DNA of 64,000 nt, taken from the NCBI RefSeq assembly GCF_000373965.1, contig NZ_KB892846.1, positions 1 to 64,000 on the forward strand, written 5' to 3'. The first letter of the stretch is position 1, and each line of letters begins with the position of its first letter. The DNA is from Uliginosibacterium gangwonense DSM 18521. Its GTDB lineage: Bacteria; Pseudomonadota; Gammaproteobacteria; Burkholderiales; Rhodocyclaceae. The translations under genes were made by a program, and so were the position numbers. The notes under the pieces were generated by a model that worked only from the letters and a program-made list of their open reading frames with translations, had not been told where the DNA came from and did not search any database. Below, piece by piece: positions 4,663 to 61,227 of the stretch.

Positions 4663-5481
4663 ATGCACCACACTATTCAAACGTCATTCCCCCGCCCTGC
4701 ACTCAAGCTTCACGTCGCAGCGCTACTCCTGAGCGCAGCCTGCGCAGCCCACGCCCAACAGGCCCCCGAAGACGCCACATGGACGCTTTCACTCGGCGCG
4801 GGCGTGGCGGACATCCCTCGCTACGAAGGCAGCGATGAACACAAAGTACGCGCCATTCCACTGATACGCGGCAGCTACCGCAGCAGCATCGGCAAATTCA
4901 GCCTCGGCAGCGAAAACGGCGCCCCTGGGCTGGCGTGGTCGATCATCGATACGCCACAACTTGAAGCGGGCCTGAGCCTGGGCATGGATCGTGGCCGCAA
5001 GGAAAGCGACAGCAGCCATCTGCAAGGCCTGGGCAACGTCAATCGCAGCCCCGAGGCAGGCATCTTCGGCGTCTACAAAATTGGCGCAGCCAGCCTGCGT
5101 CTGTCGGCCCGCACAGCCCTCAACGACAACGGCCATGGTGGCTCCCTCATCAACGCCGGGGCGGGCTACCGCTGGCAGCTTGCCGATCACCTGGGTCTGA
5201 GCACCAACGCAGGTTTCACCTGGGCCAGCACCGATTACATGCAAAGCTATTTTGGCGTGAGCGCCAGCCAATCTGCCCAATCCGGGCTTGCCCGGTATGA
5301 TGCAAAATCCGGCATCAAAGATATCAATGCAGGTCTCGGCTTGGACTACATGCTCAACCTCCACTGGATGCTCGTTGGCGGCTACCGCTTCGCCCGCCTC
5401 CAGGGCGACGCAGCAGACAGCCCCATCGTGCAACGACGCAACCAACACAGCGTCTTCGCAGGCGCCAGCTACCGCTGGTAA
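4663..5481 (+). CDS. MipA/OmpV family outer membrane protein
   Basis: A 272-residue outer membrane beta-barrel of the MipA/OmpV family. The Sec signal peptide ends near AAHAQQ. Family landmarks are GAGVADIPRYEGSDEHKVRAI at the mature N-terminus, alternating hydrophobic strands, and a final strand ending in aromatic residues (SYRW), the usual barrel-assembly signal. Members are scaffolds for the murein transglycosylase MltA or act as small outer membrane pores; the exact role here is unknown. The start at 4663 follows AAAGGAA; an ATG at 4633 is less likely. A TATACT box at about 4612-4617 could be the -10 element. Confidence 0.8.
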   Translation: MHHTIQTSFPRPALKLHVAALLLSAACAAHAQQAPEDATWTLSLGAGVADIPRYEGSDEHKVRAIPLIRGSYRSSIGKFSLGSENGAPGLAWSIIDTPQLEAGLSLGMDRGRKESDSSHLQGLGNVNRSPEAGIFGVYKIGAASLRLSARTALNDNGHGGSLINAGAGYRWQLADHLGLSTNAGFTWASTDYMQSYFGVSASQSAQSGLARYDAKSGIKDINAGLGLDYMLNLHWMLVGGYRFARLQGDAADSPIVQRRNQHSVFAGASYRW

Positions 5482-8497: not shown

Positions 8498-8938
8498 AAA
8501 AACACCTCCCGGTGAAGGGATTTGCCTAAGCAGATTCCGTGAAAGGAAGAAAAGAGTGACGCATGGTGCCATATCAGGCACCCGCAAAGAACAGGCACTA
8601 GCGCATTCATGGGAGTTCCAACGCGCGGCGGCCCGACCAGCGCAAAACCTGCCTGACACCAAAAGTTCGGCGCAGACACCCCTTGAAAAAAGAAAAAATC
8701 TATTGAGCTATCCTACCCGAACAGATATCCGCTTGCCAAGCCTTGGGAATGTATCCCATGGCAAATCCTAGGGTGAAGTTAAAACTCCCCACCCAGGAGT
8801 GATCAGGCATCACCTTTGCCGCCATCCGCCTTATGAGCAGCCCGACATGCAAAATGAGCAAACCGGTCTGCCTTGATGCTGCGATCCACAAACCGATCAA
8901 GCAGCAGCCGACCCTGGCTGCTTCGAGCAAATCAATCG
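8498..8938. other. Intergenic region without a recognised gene
   Basis: The 480-base gap between the antiporter start and the end of the next minus-strand gene. Apart from the terminator hairpin at its far end (8939-8965), I see only short shadow frames. It should hold the antiporter promoter on the minus strand, but no convincing -35/-10 pair was picked out. Confidence 0.4.
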
Positions 8939-15885: not shown

Positions 15886-17265
15886 TCATTGCTTGGATTT
15901 TGACTTGTGCTTGGCCGAATGGGGCGAGGCAAGCGGCGGCTCGCCGGCTGCTTGGGCTACGGGTACAGCAGGGGTTGCCACAGGTGATGGCCTGTTGATC
16001 GTGGGGCGACCAGAGGCATCCAGACCATATCCATTTTCAATGGCATACGCTTCCGCCCACATTGCAGGAGGGTACAGCACAAACAGCATCGCCCCCAAAC
16101 ATAACAAAGGAGTTACCAACCCGTCGTAGCGGATCATGGACACAATCCAGCCGCGCGTGGGAGGGGGATTTCCTGGCTGATAGGCATCCACCTTGGCGGC
16201 ATATGACTTCATCTTTTTATCGTAGGTACGCAGCGCATAGCGTCTCAGCACCCAATAAGGAATGGTGCAACACACGATAAACACCACCGGTTGTGGTGGC
16301 AACAAGGGGAAGGACACCACCATCATCCAGAGCACCCATGCTGCAATGGCACATAGCGCCGGTAACACCGCCATGCAAACATTCCAGCCGGGGTTCGCAC
16401 TTGGCAGCAAGGGCGGAATCGCATACAGCCCACCTTGGGCGCCATCAATCAGGAAATCATAGCGCTTACCACGATAGCTCAGTTGTATCACCCCGACAGG
16501 CACAAGACCATCAGCCACGTTCAAGCTGTAGTGGCTTCTGCAGGCCCATTGATCATGAAGATCACCTGGGGCTTCGCGGGCCAGTTCATTGATGATGGCA
16601 GCGTTGATATTGTCCCGGCCCCGGTTTCGATAAGCAGAATCGGTAGACGCTGCATACTCCTCGACCTCAAACCCCTTGATCAGCAAATCGGCATGGGTTT
16701 TGAACAGGGACGTATCCACCTTTTGCTCCACTGCCGCAGCCAATTCCGCAGGCAGGTGATCACCAGCATAGACGATTGCTGCATAGCTCCCCTCGCCTTC
16801 ACCACTGGCAGGCATCCATTCCGCAGCATTCAAACCACGCTGATAGGCAATCGAGGCGCTCCACTTTGCCTCAAAACGACCACTGAACACATAGACAGGA
16901 AGAAACATCTGCTCCACAGGCGCCTGCATCGCAGCCTCAACCATGCGCATGGGTGCACCTTGCTGCGCCAGATATCGGAGTACCACATGGCGCATGTCCT
17001 CTTCAGAGAGCGTCATGGCAATCAGCAAATCCCCTTCAGGCACCTTATCCCCTGGTGCATTGCCATACACCACGTCCGGGTCCAGCATCCCATGCCTGTC
17101 ATCATCTGTCGCAATATCACTGCTGCATTGTGGGCAGCGCATCACCTTGGCGCCAAAGGTATGGCGCAGACGAGTCCCACACTTGGCGCACACCAGTGGC
17201 GCATTCTGCCCAGTGCCAGCATTCCCGAACGGACTTTTTCCGCCTAACCTGCCCAATACACTCAT
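15886..17265 (-). CDS. Zinc-ribbon membrane protein of unknown function
   Basis: A 459-residue protein with an N-terminal zinc ribbon (CAKCG at about 27-31 and CPQCS about 14 residues later). A large soluble middle part (about 60-290) follows. Two hydrophobic segments then come close together (about 300-345), then a basic helix and a further membrane helix near 400 (PLLCLGAMLFVLYPPAM). The C-terminus is rich in Pro/Ala and ends in a Lys/Ser tail. No family is recognised beyond the zinc ribbon. The start at 17265 is preceded by a G-rich stretch; an extension to 17355 is not supported. It diverges from the chorismate mutase fusion gene. Confidence 0.65.
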   Translation of the reverse strand: MSVLGRLGGKSPFGNAGTGQNAPLVCAKCGTRLRHTFGAKVMRCPQCSSDIATDDDRHGMLDPDVVYGNAPGDKVPEGDLLIAMTLSEEDMRHVVLRYLAQQGAPMRMVEAAMQAPVEQMFLPVYVFSGRFEAKWSASIAYQRGLNAAEWMPASGEGEGSYAAIVYAGDHLPAELAAAVEQKVDTSLFKTHADLLIKGFEVEEYAASTDSAYRNRGRDNINAAIINELAREAPGDLHDQWACRSHYSLNVADGLVPVGVIQLSYRGKRYDFLIDGAQGGLYAIPPLLPSANPGWNVCMAVLPALCAIAAWVLWMMVVSFPLLPPQPVVFIVCCTIPYWVLRRYALRTYDKKMKSYAAKVDAYQPGNPPPTRGWIVSMIRYDGLVTPLLCLGAMLFVLYPPAMWAEAYAIENGYGLDASGRPTINRPSPVATPAVPVAQAAGEPPLASPHSAKHKSKSKQ

Positions 17266-17475
17266 CAAACCCCCGGTGTAAGTCTTGTCTATGCATCTAT
17301 GCCTTGTGCCGTAGCTTAACCGAGGGGCAATAGAGGCCACAAGGCAAAATAGCATGGTCTATGGATAGCAAAGGAATGCCCAGCATAGCGCCTGCCGGTC
17401 ATGTCGCCGACGCAAAAATAGCATAGACTTTCGCCAGCGCTTCGTGCCACCCGTTCTTTTCACAGAGGGAAAACA

Positions 17476-18738
17476 ATGAATTCAATGAAGAAAATGCTGA
17501 CCTGCTGCACCATGCTGTGTGCGCTCATCTACAGCACGGCCAGCCATGCGGAAATCCCCAAGGCTGTCGGTAACCTGCTCACGCTGACGGCGGAACGCCT
17601 CGCGATTGCAACCGAGGTGGCGCAGTCCAAATGGAATAGCCACGGCGCCATTGAAGATCTGGGCCGCGAAAAACAGGTGATTGGCGACACGACTGCCCTG
17701 GCCACCAAACAAGGGGTAACCGAGCAACTGGCCCGGGATTTCATCAGCGCCCAGATCGAAGCCAACAAGACGGTGCAATGGACCCTGCACCGCCAATGGA
17801 CACAGGCTCAGGCCCCCGCCTTTGAGCAGGCACCTGATCTAGCCCGCGATATCCGCCCGCATCTGGACAAACTCACCCCTCTGCTGGTTGAAGCATTGGC
17901 CAAGGCCGCGCCACAGTTGACCATTGCCGATGCCCAAGAGCTGATCGCTGCACGCCCGGAAGGCGCCGATCCGCTGGCCTGGAAGGTTGCTATCGCCCCG
18001 CTCACGGCACGCGCCCAGGCGAAAGCGGGAGAATCACGCCTGGATATCGTGCAACGCAGTGGCCTTTTGCGCATCTGCATGACAGGCGACTACAAACCCT
18101 TCACACTATGGCGCAAGGATCTCTTTGCCTTTGAGGGGGTGGATGCCGAAATAGGCCGCCAACTTGCTGCCAGCCTGCATGCAGATGTGCAATTCGTTGC
18201 CACCACCTGGGCCACCCTGATGCCCGACCTGCTTGCCAATCGCTGTGATCTCGTGAGTGGCGGGGTCTCTATCACGACCGACCGTGCGCGACTGGCAGCC
18301 TTCTCGGTGCCCGTGCAAACCGATGGCAAGACGCCGATTGTGCGCTGTGCAGACAAGGTGCGCTTCCAGACGCTTGAGCAGATTGACCAGCCGAATGTGC
18401 GTGTGATCGTCAATCCCGGTGGTACCAACGAACGCTTTGCCCGTAGCGAAATCAAACGCGCCATGATCACGGTGTTCCCGGACAACGTCACCATCTTCGA
18501 CGAAATCCTGCAAAACCGTGCTGACGTGATGATGACGGACGCCATCGAAACCCAACTCCAGCAAAAGCAACACCCCGGTCTATGCGCAGTGCATCCAGAA
18601 GCCCCCTTCACTGTGTCGGAAAAAGCCTACCTGCTACCGCGTGGTGATGTGGTGTTCAAGGAATATGTTGACCACTTCCTGCACATTGCGCTCATCGAAG
18701 GCCAGTACCGCAATCTACTTGATGGCTGGCTGAAATAG
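17476..18738 (+). CDS. Secreted chorismate mutase (AroQ-gamma)/cyclohexadienyl dehydratase (PheC) fusion
   Basis: A 420-residue two-domain periplasmic enzyme with a signal peptide ending at ASHAE (about residue 25). Residues about 30-180 form a gamma-class AroQ chorismate mutase (LTAERLAIATEVAQSKW, and the FISAQIEANKTVQ helix). Residues about 190-420 are a binding-protein-fold cyclohexadienyl dehydratase (GDYKPFTLW, VDAEIG, VNPGGTNERFARSEI, PDNVTIFDEIL, MMTDAIETQL). Together they would turn chorismate into prephenate and then phenylpyruvate (or arogenate into phenylalanine) outside the cytoplasm. GAGGGAAA precedes the ATG. Both halves appear intact. Single gene. Confidence 0.88.
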   Translation: MNSMKKMLTCCTMLCALIYSTASHAEIPKAVGNLLTLTAERLAIATEVAQSKWNSHGAIEDLGREKQVIGDTTALATKQGVTEQLARDFISAQIEANKTVQWTLHRQWTQAQAPAFEQAPDLARDIRPHLDKLTPLLVEALAKAAPQLTIADAQELIAARPEGADPLAWKVAIAPLTARAQAKAGESRLDIVQRSGLLRICMTGDYKPFTLWRKDLFAFEGVDAEIGRQLAASLHADVQFVATTWATLMPDLLANRCDLVSGGVSITTDRARLAAFSVPVQTDGKTPIVRCADKVRFQTLEQIDQPNVRVIVNPGGTNERFARSEIKRAMITVFPDNVTIFDEILQNRADVMMTDAIETQLQQKQHPGLCAVHPEAPFTVSEKAYLLPRGDVVFKEYVDHFLHIALIEGQYRNLLDGWLK

Positions 18739-55638: not shown

Positions 55639-57876
55639 ATGGCACCCAAGCGCTTGCCCCATTTGCGCAAGAAGCGCGCTATGCTTGACGGTGTGAGCGA
55701 TTCCTTCGATCACCTACTCATGCGCGCCAAACCTGCCGCCCTTACCTGCTGGCTTCACCGATGTGCACTCTGTGCCATCGTTGCTGAACTGATGCTGCTC
55801 CCCAGCATGCTGGGCCTGCCGCCCTGGGGCGCGGTATTGCTGGCGCTGTCGAGTGCGGCAACACTCGTGGCCTATTACGAATGGCAGCAGAATCGACAGA
55901 TTCACGATAACGTGGAGCGCACCCACACCCAATGCTTGCAAAGGGTGCTGGACGTCATCCCGGAGCCGGTCTACATCAAGGATGCTGCTGGGCGCTACAT
56001 CCTGATCAATGACGCCTTTGCCCGCCAACGTGGGCAAGAAGCCAGCTTCATCGTCGGTAAAACAGCGCACGATCTGGCCGCCACCCCCGAAATTGCCGCC
56101 CGCGTCATGGCCGAGGATCAGCGCGTGTTGGTCGGGGAATCGGTGCTGCGCGAGGAGGTTTTCCACAACCCTGTCACCAGACGCGAAGTGTACCGCATCG
56201 TCTCCAAGGCACCGGGGCGTAACGCCTGGGATGAACCCATCATCGTCGGCTCCAGCTTCGACATCACTAACCTGCGGCTGGCGGAATTGGGCTTACGCAA
56301 TGCGCTGGATCGGCAGGTGCAGATGCGCGAATATCTCCAGCACGTGCTGGATGCCTTACCTACGGCAGTATTCGTCAAGGATGCCCAACACCGGTTCATG
56401 CTCACCAACAAGGCGCTTGCGCTGCTCTTCGGGCGTAACCCGGAAGAAATCCTGGGGCGCCGGGCCAGCAATATCTCATCACCCGAATTTGCCGAGCTGA
56501 TCGAAGCGGATGAGGATACGCTGCTCATGCAGCCTGGCAGCGAAATGAAAACGCGCGAGGAAACCCTCACCGACACCCAGGGCAGGCTACGCCAGATCAT
56601 CATCCATATGGTACCGGGCCAAGATCCCGATGCCCACCCGGTGGTGATCGGTACAATGACCGATATCACCTCGCTGCGCCGTGCCGAGACCCGCTGGCAA
56701 TTTGCCCTGGAAGGTGCAGGCGATGGTCTGTGGGATTGGAACCTCATCAGCCACCGCTCTTATTACTCGCCACGCTGGAAAGCCATGCTGGGCTATGCTG
56801 ACGACGACATCGGCGACTGCCCTGAAGAACGCACCCAACGCATCCACCCTGATGACCTGCTGGCGGCGGGGGCCGCCCTGCAGGCCCACCTTGTGGGCCA
56901 GGAACCACTCTATCTGGCCGAATACAGATTGCGCCACCACGACGGCCACTATGTATGGGTTTTGGACCGTGGCCAAGTCATGGAACGCGATATCAATGGC
57001 AAACCACTGCGGCTGATTGCCACCTACAGCGATATCACCCAGCGCAAGCAATTTGAGGAGGAGCTGCACCGCCATCGGCACCAGTTGCAAGAATTGGTGA
57101 AGAGCCGCACCGCCGAATTGCTTCAGGCCAAGAGCCGTGCAGAAAACGCCAGCGCGGCAAAAAGCAGCTTCGTCAGCAGCATGAGTCATGAATTGCGCAC
57201 CCCTCTGCACGCCATCCTCAGCTTTGCCCGCCTGGGTGCAGATCGTGTGACGGAAGCCCCACCCGAGCGCCTGCGCGATTACTTCAACCGCATCAACCAG
57301 AGCGGCGAGCGCCTGCTCCTGTTACTCAACGACTTGCTGGACCTCTCCAAACTCGAAGCCGGGCGCATGGATCTGGCCCTGCAACACGTCCAACTTCATC
57401 AGGTGGTGCGAGAAGCCTTATTGGAATTTGAAGCCGCCATCGCCACCAAGCATCTCCAAATTGAAAGCAGCCTGGATTTGCACGGTACCGTACTGGGCGA
57501 CCCGATGCGCCTGGGCCAGGTAGTGCGCAACCTGCTCTCCAACGCCATCAAGCACTCTCCAGAGAACGGCCAGCTACGCCTGCACATCAGTGCCACCACA
57601 TTGCATGCCCACCCCGGCAGCGACAATCTGCCCAATCTGCCCGCGATACAATTACGGATTGCCGATCAAGGCATCGGCATCCCCCCGGAAGAGCTCGAAC
57701 GCATCTTTGAGACTTTCGTCCAGGCCAGTCACACCACCCACAGCAGCGGTAGCTCTGGGCTGGGGCTGGCAATCTGCCGTGAGATCATCCAGGCCCACGG
57801 CGGTCTGATCTACGCACGTAACCGTAGCGAGGGCGGAGCCGAATTCATCGTCTGCATCCCCTGCCCATTAAATTGA
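55639..57876 (+). CDS. Multi-PAS sensor histidine kinase
   Basis: A 745-residue sensor kinase. Two hydrophobic segments (about 38-80) anchor it, then three PAS domains (about 100-215, 235-350 and 360-470). The dimerisation domain carries the phosphoacceptor His517 in SSMSHELRTPLHAI. The ATPase domain has NLLSNAIKHS, DQGIGIPPEELERIFE and GLGLAICREI. No REC domain is attached, so the divergent REC-PAS protein is the natural partner. Starts at 55681 or 55720 are possible; the ribosome binding sites are weak. A terminator for the convergent gene lies downstream. Confidence 0.9.
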   Translation: MAPKRLPHLRKKRAMLDGVSDSFDHLLMRAKPAALTCWLHRCALCAIVAELMLLPSMLGLPPWGAVLLALSSAATLVAYYEWQQNRQIHDNVERTHTQCLQRVLDVIPEPVYIKDAAGRYILINDAFARQRGQEASFIVGKTAHDLAATPEIAARVMAEDQRVLVGESVLREEVFHNPVTRREVYRIVSKAPGRNAWDEPIIVGSSFDITNLRLAELGLRNALDRQVQMREYLQHVLDALPTAVFVKDAQHRFMLTNKALALLFGRNPEEILGRRASNISSPEFAELIEADEDTLLMQPGSEMKTREETLTDTQGRLRQIIIHMVPGQDPDAHPVVIGTMTDITSLRRAETRWQFALEGAGDGLWDWNLISHRSYYSPRWKAMLGYADDDIGDCPEERTQRIHPDDLLAAGAALQAHLVGQEPLYLAEYRLRHHDGHYVWVLDRGQVMERDINGKPLRLIATYSDITQRKQFEEELHRHRHQLQELVKSRTAELLQAKSRAENASAAKSSFVSSMSHELRTPLHAILSFARLGADRVTEAPPERLRDYFNRINQSGERLLLLLNDLLDLSKLEAGRMDLALQHVQLHQVVREALLEFEAAIATKHLQIESSLDLHGTVLGDPMRLGQVVRNLLSNAIKHSPENGQLRLHISATTLHAHPGSDNLPNLPAIQLRIADQGIGIPPEELERIFETFVQASHTTHSSGSSGLGLAICREIIQAHGGLIYARNRSEGGAEFIVCIPCPLN

Positions 57877-58006: not shown

Positions 58007-59110
58007 TCACTTGCAAGTCAGCGTCTTCAAACCCTTGCCTTGACCGGCAACGGCTGGCAGGTTGTTCTTGACGCATGTGGCGGTGTCAGGCGTATAGGTA
58101 TAGGTCATTTCCGCGCTGGGGAAAGCCTTGGTAGTCGTCCAATCCGTCGCATCCTTACAGGTGCCGGAACATGCCGTCCACTTGATGCCATATGTGCCGA
58201 AATCGCTTGCACTGGCCACGTTGTTGTTGCGCAGATCCCAGTAACCGATCTTCGAACTGTCACGCGAGGTCACGATATTCTTGGTGTTGACGAACCAGTT
58301 CCCTTCGATCAGCGCCTGCCCACCCATACGCACATTGATGCCCGAGGTGGTCACACCGCTATAGATGTTGTTGTACTCATGCGTAAAACCGCCACGTTGC
58401 AGCGGAATACGGGCCCCAACGTTAGAGTAGTAGTTATGGTGGAAAGTGATATGCCGCTTCGATAGATCGGTATCGCTGGAGCCATCCAGACCCACCTTGT
58501 GGTGATCATGGATGTAGTTGTACGAAATGGTGATGTTGTCGATGTTGCTCTTCATGTCCATCACGCCGTCAAAGGCCGTGTCGTTACCCGGAGTGCCTGC
58601 ACACCAGATCTCGCCGCCCTCTTCCACGTTACGGCTGAACATTTCGTTATGGTCAATCCAGATGTTCTTGGCAGAACCTTCGACGCCAAAAATGTCACCG
58701 TTGCTGCTCCCGCCGGGCAGCATACCGATCTTCATATTGCGAACGATGACATTGCTTGAAGCACCCTTGATGCGGATGCCAAAATTAGCGGAAGAACCAT
58801 CGGCACCAATAATGGTGACGTCACTCTTACCATCGATCACCACCTCACGGGCAGCCTTCTTCCATTGGCCGCAAACATCGGCTTGAGCTGCCTTGATGTC
58901 AGCGTCCTGATTACCCGTATAGCGGATCACCACAGGCCCAGTGGCCTTGTCAATGATGCTCTGAATGGCTGCCATCGTGCTGGCGGTCTGTTCCGCAGCA
59001 CTTCCGCCCCCTGTTGCGGTGGCATATCCGCCTGTATTACTAGCAAAAGCCATGCTTGCGCTCAGCGCAAGCACAACAGACAAAAAAGCGGTTTTGGTTT
59101 TGAACTGCAT
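58007..59110 (-). CDS. Secreted pectate lyase, polysaccharide lyase family 1
   Basis: A 367-residue PL1 pectate lyase with a Sec signal peptide ending SMAFASN (about residue 25), so it is secreted rather than anchored. Key elements are IWIDHNEMFS, DGVMDMKSNIDNITISYNYIHDHHK (calcium ligands), and HHNYYSNVGARIPLQRGG with the catalytic Arg in the RIPLQRGG motif. The end contains cysteines (ACSGTC, ATCVKN, LTCK) likely disulphide-bonded. GGAGAC precedes the ATG at 59110; a GTG at 59116 is less likely. It shares substrate with the lipoprotein lyase at 35.6-37.2 kb. Confidence 0.92.
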   Translation of the reverse strand: MQFKTKTAFLSVVLALSASMAFASNTGGYATATGGGSAAEQTASTMAAIQSIIDKATGPVVIRYTGNQDADIKAAQADVCGQWKKAAREVVIDGKSDVTIIGADGSSANFGIRIKGASSNVIVRNMKIGMLPGGSSNGDIFGVEGSAKNIWIDHNEMFSRNVEEGGEIWCAGTPGNDTAFDGVMDMKSNIDNITISYNYIHDHHKVGLDGSSDTDLSKRHITFHHNYYSNVGARIPLQRGGFTHEYNNIYSGVTTSGINVRMGGQALIEGNWFVNTKNIVTSRDSSKIGYWDLRNNNVASASDFGTYGIKWTACSGTCKDATDWTTTKAFPSAEMTYTYTPDTATCVKNNLPAVAGQGKGLKTLTCK

Positions 59111-59448
59111 AATCACAAAGTCTCCAAACTAGGGTTAAACAAACAATCTCTGCGTTGGGGATAAGGCACCAATGCCCATACTTTTCGGCTATTTCGTCAG
59201 CAAGGCACTAGATGACATTGTTTTTGTCATTTTTTGTTACCGGTATCATCATAACGCCCACCCTTACAATCTGAAGCGCCGCTTGTCGGTCTTTCACTCA
59301 AATTTCATATAGATCAATAAAAACCGATCACAACAACTAAAATCCTGATCGAATATCCTACAACATTCCAAGTGGGTGACGAATTTCGGCACCACAGACC
59401 GTAAGTCAGCACTACGCCGCTCCAATGTGTAACGGCTATTTGACGATC
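59111..59448. other. Upstream region of pectate lyase and NtrC-like site
   Basis: A 340-base stretch holding the minus-strand pectate lyase promoter (not fixed). No gene is supported; a minus-strand frame (59314-59625) crosses the regulatory sites and has no ribosome binding site of its own. Confidence 0.4.
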
Positions 59449-59465
59449 TGCACCAGAAAAGTGCA
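59449..59465 (+). promoter_or_regulatory. NtrC-like enhancer site
   Basis: TGCACCAGAAAAGTGCA has the TGCAC-N7-GTGCA dyad of NtrC sites and matches the enterobacterial consensus at 14 of 17 positions. It lies about 80 bases upstream of the sigma-54 promoter, a typical enhancer distance. Confidence 0.6.
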
Positions 59466-59528
59466 GTGCCATCCGCAGCGAACGCACCAAGCCCACACGC
59501 AGAACCGCCCCGCCAAGATTTTTACATC

Positions 59529-59545
59529 TGGCACGCAGTTTGCTT
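59529..59545 (+). promoter_or_regulatory. Sigma-54 promoter
   Basis: TGGCACGCAGTTTGCTT carries the invariant GG (59530-59531) and GC (59542-59543) ten bases apart in the consensus TGGCACG-N4-TTGCT. Transcription would start near 59554. Confidence 0.75.
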
Positions 59546-59553
59546 AATACAAA

Positions 59554-59660
59554 GCGATGCTTACGTCGAATGTCGTAACTGCATTCTCCTCCTGCCGCCA
59601 GTTTGAAGGCGTGCTTTGGCCGCACGGTGCCTGGAACAGATACCGTGCGGTTAATTTTTT
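59554..59660 (+). ncRNA. Putative NtrC/sigma-54-dependent small RNA
   Basis: A sigma-54 promoter starts about 105 bases before a strong terminator with no ORF between them, which is the signature of a small RNA. Folding by eye gives a first hairpin (ATGCTTACG at 59557-59565 with CGTAA-CT-GCAT at 59574-59584). A single-stranded stretch with CTCCTCC (59586-59592), an anti-Shine-Dalgarno motif, follows, then a weak GC hairpin and the terminator stem. It could base-pair with GGAGG start sites of many genes here. Expression under nitrogen limitation is expected if the NtrC-like site is real. The alternative is a leader or attenuator for the downstream gene. Confidence 0.55.
59620..59660 (+). terminator. 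Strong orphan intrinsic terminator
   Basis: CCGCACGGT (59620-59628) pairs with ACCGTGCGG (59642-59650), followed by TTAATTTTTT. It lies 98 bases before the next gene and downstream of no annotated gene, consistent with ending a small RNA. Confidence 0.85.
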
Positions 59661-59757
59661 CCAGTCTCCGCCCACAAGGGAACTCCAGTCTGCGTTTTAA
59701 GGATGGCGCCTGCTACAATGCCAGGAAAATATCCATACCAGCCTTGGAGCTGCCCTG

Positions 59758-61227
59758 ATGAAAAATCGCCTTGCCCCACTGGCCTTCGGCCTACTGTTGG
59801 CCCTGCCCCTATGCACCAGCCAAGCCGCCACAGCGGCTGGATCGCGTAATGAACGCCTTGCACGCGACTATTACAGCCGCCTGATTGCCACACCCACACC
59901 ACAAACAGCCGAGCTGACCCTCTTTGCTAACCTGCTGCCCAAGGGGGGCGATCTGCATAACCACTATTCCGGCGCGCAGTATGCCGAAACCTATCTAGCG
60001 TGGATCGACCAACAGCATTACTGCATCAATCCGCAGAGTTCCCAAATCCAGACCACATCACCCACAGGGCCGGACTGCGTGAGCGCCGCCGACCTCGTCA
60101 ATAACGAGAATGCCTACCGCACCCTGCTGCAACGCTGGTCTGACAAGGACTTCTCCAACCACACCCAGCTCCAGCCTCCGCCCGATCAACAGTTCTTCGA
60201 CACCTTCGGCTACTTCGGTGCCATTTCCGGTTATGACACACCAGCCGGGCTACGCCTCTTGAAAGAGCGGGCCAAGGCAGAAAATGTGCAGTATCTGGAA
60301 ACCATGCTGCAAAGCGCCCCGGCCACCATCAACCCACAGCTTGCCCCGGCGATTGATGCCTTGTCGCCGGACGCCACCCGGGCCCAATTTAATGCGGCTA
60401 TCGTGCCCTATGCCGATTTCCTTGCTAACGACCCCGGCGCACAGAAATCCATTGCCGACTACCGCGAACGGCTTGCCGGATACGCCAAAGGCATTGATGA
60501 GGCAGACTTCACACTGCGCTTCCAGACCTATGTGGGCCGCACCAGCGCAGCCTCCAAGGTTTTCGCTGGCTTATTCGCCGCTTTTGCCGCTGCGCAGAAC
60601 AACCCGCTGATCGTCGGCGTCAACATCGTCGCGCCTGAGAACAACACCGTCTCAATGCGGGACTATGCGCTGCACATGCGCATGTTCCAATATCTGCGCC
60701 AACGTTTCCCCGGCGTACACATCTCCACCCATGCAGGGGAACTCGCGCTGGGTATGGTGCCCCCTGAAGGGCTGCGCAATCACATCCGGCAAGCGGTAGA
60801 AATTGCCGGGGCCGAACGCATTGGCCACGGCGTGGATATCGCCCATGAAGACAATGCCGATCAACTACTGGCAGAGCTTGCCACCAAGAACATTGCCATT
60901 GAAGTCAATCTCACCAGCAACGCCTTTATCCTGGGCGTAGCCAACGACGCTCACCCGGTCACGCTCTATGCCCGCCAGGGCGTCCCCTTCGTGCTCTCCA
61001 CTGATGACCCCGGCGTATCGCGCAACAACCTCAGCGGCGAATACCTGCTCTACATCACGCGCTACAAGCCTAGTTACGAAGCGCTCAAACGCGTGGTCTA
61101 CAACAGCATCCGCTACGCCTTCCTCACCCCAGAAGAAAAGCAACAGCAATTGCGCAAGCTGGATGAGCGATTTGCAAGCTTTGAAGCACGCATGGCGAAA
61201 TTGGCAAAACCCATCCAGACCCGATAA
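59758..61227 (+). CDS. Secreted adenosine deaminase-like enzyme
   Basis: A 489-residue metal-dependent hydrolase of the adenosine deaminase superfamily with a signal peptide ending SQAATA (about residue 24), so it acts in the periplasm or outside the cell. Metal and catalytic motifs are complete: GGDLHNHYSG (His67 and His69), HISTHAGE, RIGHGVDI and LSTDDPGV. It would deaminate adenosine (or a related nucleoside) to inosine, possibly for nucleoside salvage. Length and secretion recall the ADGF-type branch. A TGCTACAAT extended -10 (59711-59719) lies upstream. Confidence 0.87.
   Translation: MKNRLAPLAFGLLLALPLCTSQAATAAGSRNERLARDYYSRLIATPTPQTAELTLFANLLPKGGDLHNHYSGAQYAETYLAWIDQQHYCINPQSSQIQTTSPTGPDCVSAADLVNNENAYRTLLQRWSDKDFSNHTQLQPPPDQQFFDTFGYFGAISGYDTPAGLRLLKERAKAENVQYLETMLQSAPATINPQLAPAIDALSPDATRAQFNAAIVPYADFLANDPGAQKSIADYRERLAGYAKGIDEADFTLRFQTYVGRTSAASKVFAGLFAAFAAAQNNPLIVGVNIVAPENNTVSMRDYALHMRMFQYLRQRFPGVHISTHAGELALGMVPPEGLRNHIRQAVEIAGAERIGHGVDIAHEDNADQLLAELATKNIAIEVNLTSNAFILGVANDAHPVTLYARQGVPFVLSTDDPGVSRNNLSGEYLLYITRYKPSYEALKRVVYNSIRYAFLTPEEKQQQLRKLDERFASFEARMAKLAKPIQTR

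Follow-up and report, generated by a model that had tools for sequence, protein, structure and literature searches.

A candidate NtrC/sigma-54-controlled small RNA with an exposed CUCCUCC linker in Uliginosibacterium gangwonense

Within the 64,000-nucleotide stretch of Uliginosibacterium gangwonense DNA analysed here (the window), one intergenic region carries a unit that we read, from its sequence, as a free-standing small-RNA gene that NtrC and sigma-54 turn on when nitrogen is short, and the RNA of which would probably block ribosome-binding sites. We place the probability of this reading at about 0.55. Nitrogen control of the unit is very probable and a free-standing RNA rather than a leader is probable, and the chances that CUCCUCC pairs with ribosome-binding sites are about even. 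The unit is ordinary in its parts and unusual in its absence of relatives, and it is presented here as a candidate NtrC-controlled sRNA.

An NtrC-type dyad and a sigma-54 promoter in a divergent intergenic region

The start of the divergent pectate lyase gene at 59110 is separated from the adenosine deaminase-like gene by 647 bases, and all of the signals in this gap lie on the + strand. The features are as follows.

58007-59110, - strand: pectate lyase (PF00544), divergent flanking gene; secretion signal judged by eye
59449-59465, + strand: NtrC-type binding dyad TGCACC-N5-AGTGCA (TGCACCAGAAAAGTGCA), from sequence and consensus scan
59529-59544, + strand: sigma-54 promoter TGGCACG-N4-TTGCT (TGGCACGCAGTTTGCT), -24/-12, from sequence and consensus scan
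about 59555-59660, + strand: predicted RNA of about 106 nt; start from promoter geometry, end at the last terminator T
59556-59585, + strand: hairpin 1 of the RNA, from the fold
59586-59593, + strand: unpaired linker CUCCUCCU, candidate anti-Shine-Dalgarno seed, unpaired probability 0.79-1.0
59594-59614, + strand: hairpin 2 of the RNA with an 8-nt loop, from the fold
59616-59660, + strand: intrinsic terminator, stem 59616-59654 and T6 59655-59660, from sequence and fold
59711-59719, + strand: extended -10 box TGCTACAAT, 3' of the terminator and 47 nt 5' of the deaminase ATG; poor -35
59758-61227, + strand: adenosine deaminase-like gene (PF00962), below the NCBIfam adenosine deaminase cut-off; secretion signal judged by eye

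The dyad differs at one position from TGCACCN5GGTGCA and is the best of six matches with up to two mismatches in the window; since shuffled sequences contain 6.3 such matches, loose dyad matches are not enriched. The promoter is the single exact match to TGGCACN5TTGCW in the window, compared with an average of 0.22 in simulated windows, and at one mismatch the motif is again not enriched (3 matches, against 4.7 in shuffles). With the C at 59543 taken as -12, the +1 position is predicted to lie near 59555, about 98 nt 3' of the dyad centre. The two elements were also scored together: a dyad followed by a promoter after a spacer of 45-75 was seen in none of 300 simulated windows, and the strict dyad followed by the promoter after a spacer of 40-70 occurs only once in the 5.02-Mb genome. 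The earlier note had described an NtrC-like dyad, a sigma-54 promoter and a terminator in this region. All three are confirmed as real signals, each within a few bases of where it had been placed, and all three are intact and correctly spaced.

The genome encodes NtrC (C24:96452-97846, 683 bits against a curated cut-off of 558.6) and a single RpoN (C24:128021-129478, 484 bits against a cut-off of 277), so that the marks of an NtrC/sigma-54 unit, namely a -24/-12 promoter, an upstream NtrC dyad and genes for both proteins, are all present. The genome has eleven further NtrC-model matches above 290 bits, indicating that other enhancer-binding proteins exist. One of these could drive the sigma-54 transcript in place of NtrC, in which case nitrogen would not be the signal and the product would still be a terminated small RNA; a look-alike unit described below, which has a sigma-54 site without an NtrC dyad, is also in keeping with this. 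We regard it as improbable, given that the dyad lies at the usual distance and fits the NtrC consensus, and that 9 of the 15 other family sites with this pattern are found before GlnA or NirB.

The same promoter arrangement in family genomes

Those sites come from a search of 249 family genomes for the dyad, a spacer of 45-75 and the promoter, which found the pattern in 16 genomes, at 16 sites including that of the window, whereas the reversed-pattern control found it in 0 of 249. All loci were read and the proteins of 14 were scanned. The distance from dyad start to promoter start is 80 nt in the window and 68-91 nt at the other 15 sites. Three of these precede GlnA (L076, L083 and L085, above the TIGR00653 cut-off) and six precede a protein with NirB as its best match (L072 and L077-L081), where the proteins end at the locus edge and score just below the cut-off. 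A further three precede an NMT1-like binding protein of PF13379 (L075, L082 and L086), a group that we take to hold nitrate-binding proteins. The remaining loci have a molybdopterin oxidoreductase that comes closest to formate dehydrogenase and NasA/NasC models without reaching any of their cut-offs (L074), RnfA/RsxA (L073), and a sequence that stops 114 nt past +1 (L084).

Several of these transcripts have structured leaders. Hexaloop hairpins with A1 and G4 were found in the sigma-54 leaders of L075, L082 and L086, and also in L114, a locus of the same genus (genome G003) that was brought in by the covariance model described below. Terminators are also present in these leaders, by scan in L075, L086 and L114 and by eye in L082. 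In L114, the sequence from 1501 comprises a variant sigma-54 site, an ANTAR-type hairpin GGACAACGGCGTCC, a terminator and then a twin-arginine-like gene start, an arrangement suggestive of a NasT-type leader in the genus. Among the 16, the window unit alone has a terminator yet lacks an ANTAR-type hexaloop. According to excerpts of PMC3369931, ANTAR proteins (NasR/NasT) recognise hexaloop hairpins with A1 and G4, and the leaders they act on carry hairpins upstream of an intrinsic terminator. The window unit shares with such leaders the small hairpins and the terminator, but it has no A1/G4 hexaloop and the gene that follows it is not nitrate-related.

Fold and coding capacity of the predicted RNA

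When folded, 59554-59660 gives -42.3 kcal/mol (z -3.79), and none of 200 shuffles was as stable. CTCCTCC at 59586-59592 was unpaired in the fold model with a probability of 0.79 at its first base and 0.99-1.0 at the others, in agreement with the earlier proposal that it is single-stranded between hairpins. The terminator is absent from the list produced by a simple consensus terminator scan of the window. There is no other + strand gene for this terminator to serve: the preceding one stops at 57876, with a minus-strand gene in between.

The earlier description of about 105 bases free of open reading frames also held, in that no plausible ORF was found. A 47-codon frame opens at ATG 59557, and its position 2 nt past the predicted start would allow it to be translated leaderless from +1, making the transcript a small mRNA. 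This is highly improbable: no ribosome-binding site for the frame is visible in the sequence, and the frame runs through the terminator hairpin to stop beyond it.

The 59555-59660 unit has no Rfam match at the gathering threshold, and at E <= 10 the region 59400-59760 gave three sub-threshold matches only, to WT1-AS_4, narK and mir-4703. The sole Rfam match in the window at gathering is a candidate nhaA-I riboswitch at 8624-8681 on the - strand (RF03057, 44.7 bits against a gathering value of 37).

If the unit works as we propose, phosphorylated NtrC would bind the dyad at 59449-59465 and activate sigma-54 polymerase at 59529-59544. Transcription from about 59555 to the terminator at about 59660 would then yield an RNA of about 106 nt consisting of a hairpin, the exposed CUCCUCC, a second hairpin and the terminator. 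This RNA would most likely act in trans, CUCCUCC pairing with purine-rich Shine-Dalgarno sequences, and under nitrogen scarcity genes that are costly to express would be translated less.

Leader of the deaminase gene or free-standing RNA

The main rival to a free-standing RNA is that the NtrC/sigma-54 promoter serves the deaminase gene, the terminator being a conditional attenuator or a partial stop within its leader. The deaminase gene lies on the same strand, its ATG 203 nt past the predicted +1, a distance that is not decisive against a leader since the corresponding distance to the NirB gene of L072 is 192 nt. The deaminase product would free ammonia from adenosine, which fits nitrogen scavenging, and the four family sigma-54 leaders with A1/G4 hexaloops described above have terminators too. 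However, no A1/G4 hexaloop hairpin is present in this stretch before the deaminase gene, so that a leader here would not be of the known NasR/NasT type, and a minimum free energy fold extended to 59757 retains the terminator hairpin. The deaminase gene also has its own extended -10 box 3' of the terminator. This box is likely to be a separate sigma-70 promoter for the gene; TGNTANAAT occurs nowhere else on either strand of the window, and the box is absent from a promoter list that required a -35 element.

Homologues of the deaminase were sought in 399 genomes of the order, giving 29 matching genomes including its own. The dyad and sigma-54 promoter were found within 700 nt upstream in 0 of the 28 others, which speaks against the leader. 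Individual elements were seen there: a loose sigma-54-like match in L060, a short dyad in L054 and L056, and a terminator-like hairpin in L054 and L057. We consider an attenuated deaminase leader unlikely and a free-standing RNA the probable product.

The unit has no detectable homologue

We looked for relatives of the unit in several ways. A blastn search with 59440-59680 against 60 relatives and its own genome returned the self match only, and nothing was found among 72,556 plasmid and 50,697 phage records. A covariance model built on the unit gave only its own site as a convincing match, both in 199 family genomes (own included; best elsewhere E 0.01) and, with looser filters, in 40 close genomes (own included; best elsewhere E 0.05). 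By blastn the unit is single-copy in its genome, the other covariance hits there (E >= 0.04) being rejected on reading. The weak covariance hits at E >= 0.01 (L032-L036, L112-L119 and L121-L124) were likewise rejected on reading, L114 and L116 being taken as leaders; L120, a 29-position match, was left out of this reading.

The comparison across related genomes that the earlier note had proposed as a check thus went against conservation, the unit being absent from 7 other species of the genus. In G003, of the same genus, the DUF1800 gene that follows the deaminase gene has a 72% match, and the deaminase gene and the intergenic region are unmatched. The locus with the best synteny in the genus is L088, where the match runs from DUF1800 onward and the 1500-nt flank has no DNA match to the deaminase or the intergenic region. 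The pectate lyase segment of the window (58007-59110) has DNA matches at several places in most genus genomes, and so seems to belong to a multicopy gene family there.

The unit therefore looks lineage-specific among the species compared, though very near genomes may be absent from the collection. As no homologue was found, there is neither covariation nor seed conservation to cite. Lineage-specific sRNAs are common, so absence from relatives lowers the sRNA claim without refuting it. The same absence, together with the state of L088, would also suit a functionless or decaying unit in which a promoter and a terminator are relics of a rearrangement and CUCCUCC is coincidental. The promoter, dyad and terminator are nevertheless intact and correctly spaced, and such a relic seems to us a poor prospect. 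The earlier claim of an NtrC/sigma-54 small RNA is partly supported: for NtrC/sigma-54 control and a terminated unit, good support comes from the sequence itself, from the pattern occurring once in the genome and from the comparison across the family.

A search of the 249 family genomes for the promoter followed by N25-55 and CTCCTCC found 17 sites in 15 genomes (reversed control 0). All 17 were read by eye and, apart from the window's own, they resemble mRNA leaders or coding sequence. Four loci of genus g26 (L003-L006, about 1501-1640) have a sigma-54 site, a leader with CTCTCCTCC and then a GGGAGA start region, the protein beginning MPKPK; with CTCTCCTCC placed before GGGAGA, the leader might mask its own ribosome-binding site. 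In the window's own genome, a second sigma-54 site followed by CTCCTCC was noted at C1:228593-228649 (L016), in a leader with GAAGGAGAG a short way 5' of a possible start codon, and is perhaps the same cis arrangement.

Seed pairing and candidate targets

The argument is weakest where it relies on CTCCTCC being present in the linker. The motif is not rare, occurring 8 times on the + strand and twice on the - strand of the window, and an arithmetic estimate puts the chance of one copy per about 105 nt near 1%, for a motif that was noticed after the fact. Of the earlier claim of an anti-Shine-Dalgarno loop, the exposure of the seed is borne out by the fold model, and no homologue was found in which its conservation could be followed.

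For 201 genes in 284 kb of the same genome, start regions were estimated and the pairing of the 26-nt seed region with them was scored. The mean was -17.1, compared with -15.6 for shuffles of the seed region (3 of 100 as good) and -14.9 inside genes; as the gene starts had been selected for their pairing with a 16S-like tail, and some bases of the seed region belong to a hairpin, these values make a weak and partly circular test, which singles out no target. The earlier note had suggested the flanking genes as possible targets. Both pair below the 201-gene mean (adenosine deaminase -12.2, pectate lyase -15.6) and they are not favoured. The DUF1800 gene, next after the deaminase, scored -19.9. 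The gene directly 5' of ntrC is presumably ntrB, judging from its position; with its rank of 74 among the 201, feedback of the NfeR1 kind (see below) is not indicated.

An NtrC-class response regulator gene at 16058-17479 (-) of locus L133 scores 392 bits to the NtrC model, and its estimated start region ranks 5 of 201 for seed pairing. The ProQ/FinO gene to which the earlier note had pointed as RNA-chaperone machinery is indeed present (PF04352, 30404-30838, - strand), and is uninformative on the 59555-59660 RNA.

A look-alike unit in Nitrosomonadales

A scan for the CTCCTCC-linker pattern in the genome_contigs collection, which by its description holds 84,980 species, returned 8 records, all of which were examined. 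Six lie within open frames of at least 150 codons, and L039 was judged by eye to be the start of a coding frame. The eighth, L037, comes from a metagenome bin of Nitrosomonadales and is an orphan unit. It has a sigma-54 site at 4893-4908, between a GGDEF/EAL gene that ends at 4792 and an ABC transporter gene that starts at 5056, and no NtrC dyad was found in it. The predicted RNA of 85 nt (4919-5003) comprises a hairpin, a CUCCUCC linker (unpaired 0.60-1.0) and a terminator, and folds at -27.1 kcal/mol (z -3.7 against mononucleotide shuffles). The terminator could serve the preceding gene too. A TATAAT lies at 5022, 3' of the terminator and before the ABC transporter gene.

The search pattern itself included the linker, which is why L037 shares it, and we do not treat L037 as a homologue. 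Outside the pattern, 593 of 1000 shuffles were as good as the real similarity 5' of the linker and 426 of 1000 in the upstream region; 3' of the linker the similarity is weakly above shuffles (32 of 1000 as good), helped by the shared T-run of the terminators. Covariance model R1 gave no match on L037 at E <= 10, and its sub-threshold Rfam matches were to sbrA (E 0.26) and suhB/mmgR (E 0.32).

It is possible that L037 is a second case of the same plan without being a homologue. On a broader view, which we hold to be doubtful, Betaproteobacteria would contain scattered, fast-changing free-standing RNAs made up of a sigma-54 promoter, a hairpin, a bare CUCCUCC and a terminator, each followed by a gene that has a promoter of its own; the RNA of the window would be tied to NtrC and that of L037 to another activator. 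If there were such a class, different stress signals would act through one and the same brake on translation. Its novelty would lie in the -24/-12 promoter plan and in repeated independent assembly, since an NtrC-activated anti-SD sRNA, MmgR, is already known.

Comparison with known systems

The known RNAs are compared here as excerpts of the cited papers describe them. MmgR of Sinorhizobium meliloti (alpha-r8, RF00519) is trans-acting, is induced by NtrC on nitrogen depletion and has a predicted anti-SD motif, and a review table gives both RpoD and RpoN for it (PMC8401924, PMC7143759, PMC9170634). It is 77 nt long and conserved in alphaproteobacteria, with the anti-SD motif in its first loop and a dyad between -35 and -10, whereas in the window unit the motif lies in the linker between hairpins, and the promoter is of the -24/-12 type with the dyad far upstream. 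RF00519 had no match at E <= 10 in 59400-59760.

NrsZ of Pseudomonas aeruginosa is transcribed under nitrogen limitation by NtrB/C and RpoN (PMC9308961, PMC8395346). It is processed, about 226 nt long and conserved in Pseudomonas, adjoins ntrC, activates rhlA and bears the motif ACAGGCAG. This motif is absent from the window unit, its only hits in the window being at 857 and 49229, and unlike NrsZ the unit does not adjoin ntrC, which is on contig C24 while the unit is on C13.

A similar arrangement of the motif is that of NmsRA and NmsRB of Neisseria meningitidis, in which a UC-rich anti-SD sequence lies in the single strand between stem-loops 1 and 2, of three predicted (PMC5362039). These are two siblings with -35/-10 boxes, whereas the window unit is single-copy with a sigma-54 promoter. 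The rhizobial anti-SD sRNA NfeR1 (alpha-r14) is repressed by NtrC and silences ntrBC (PMC10746234); each of its three hairpins carries CCUCCUCCC, in contrast to the one CUCCUCC and the predicted NtrC activation of the window unit. The S17/bdhR1 sRNAs, conserved in Betaproteobacteria, have a CU-rich unpaired stretch and a terminator and act on ribosome-binding sites (PMC11722255, RF02278), and RF02278 gave no match at E <= 10. In E. coli O157, NtrC exerts negative control over EsrF (PMC8092317). The window unit thus resembles known sRNAs in parts, and lacks at least one tested defining feature of each of MmgR, NrsZ, NmsR and NfeR1.

In the literature searched on Rhodocyclaceae, judged by title and abstract beginning among the papers listed (12 of 52), no free-standing sRNA activated by NtrC/sigma-54 was found described. 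If our reading of the unit is true, it would add such an RNA to this group, and it would clearly exemplify how a single lineage can put together an sRNA gene out of standard parts. The unit also points to an easy screen for orphan RNAs, namely a sigma-54 site followed by a terminator with no ORF.
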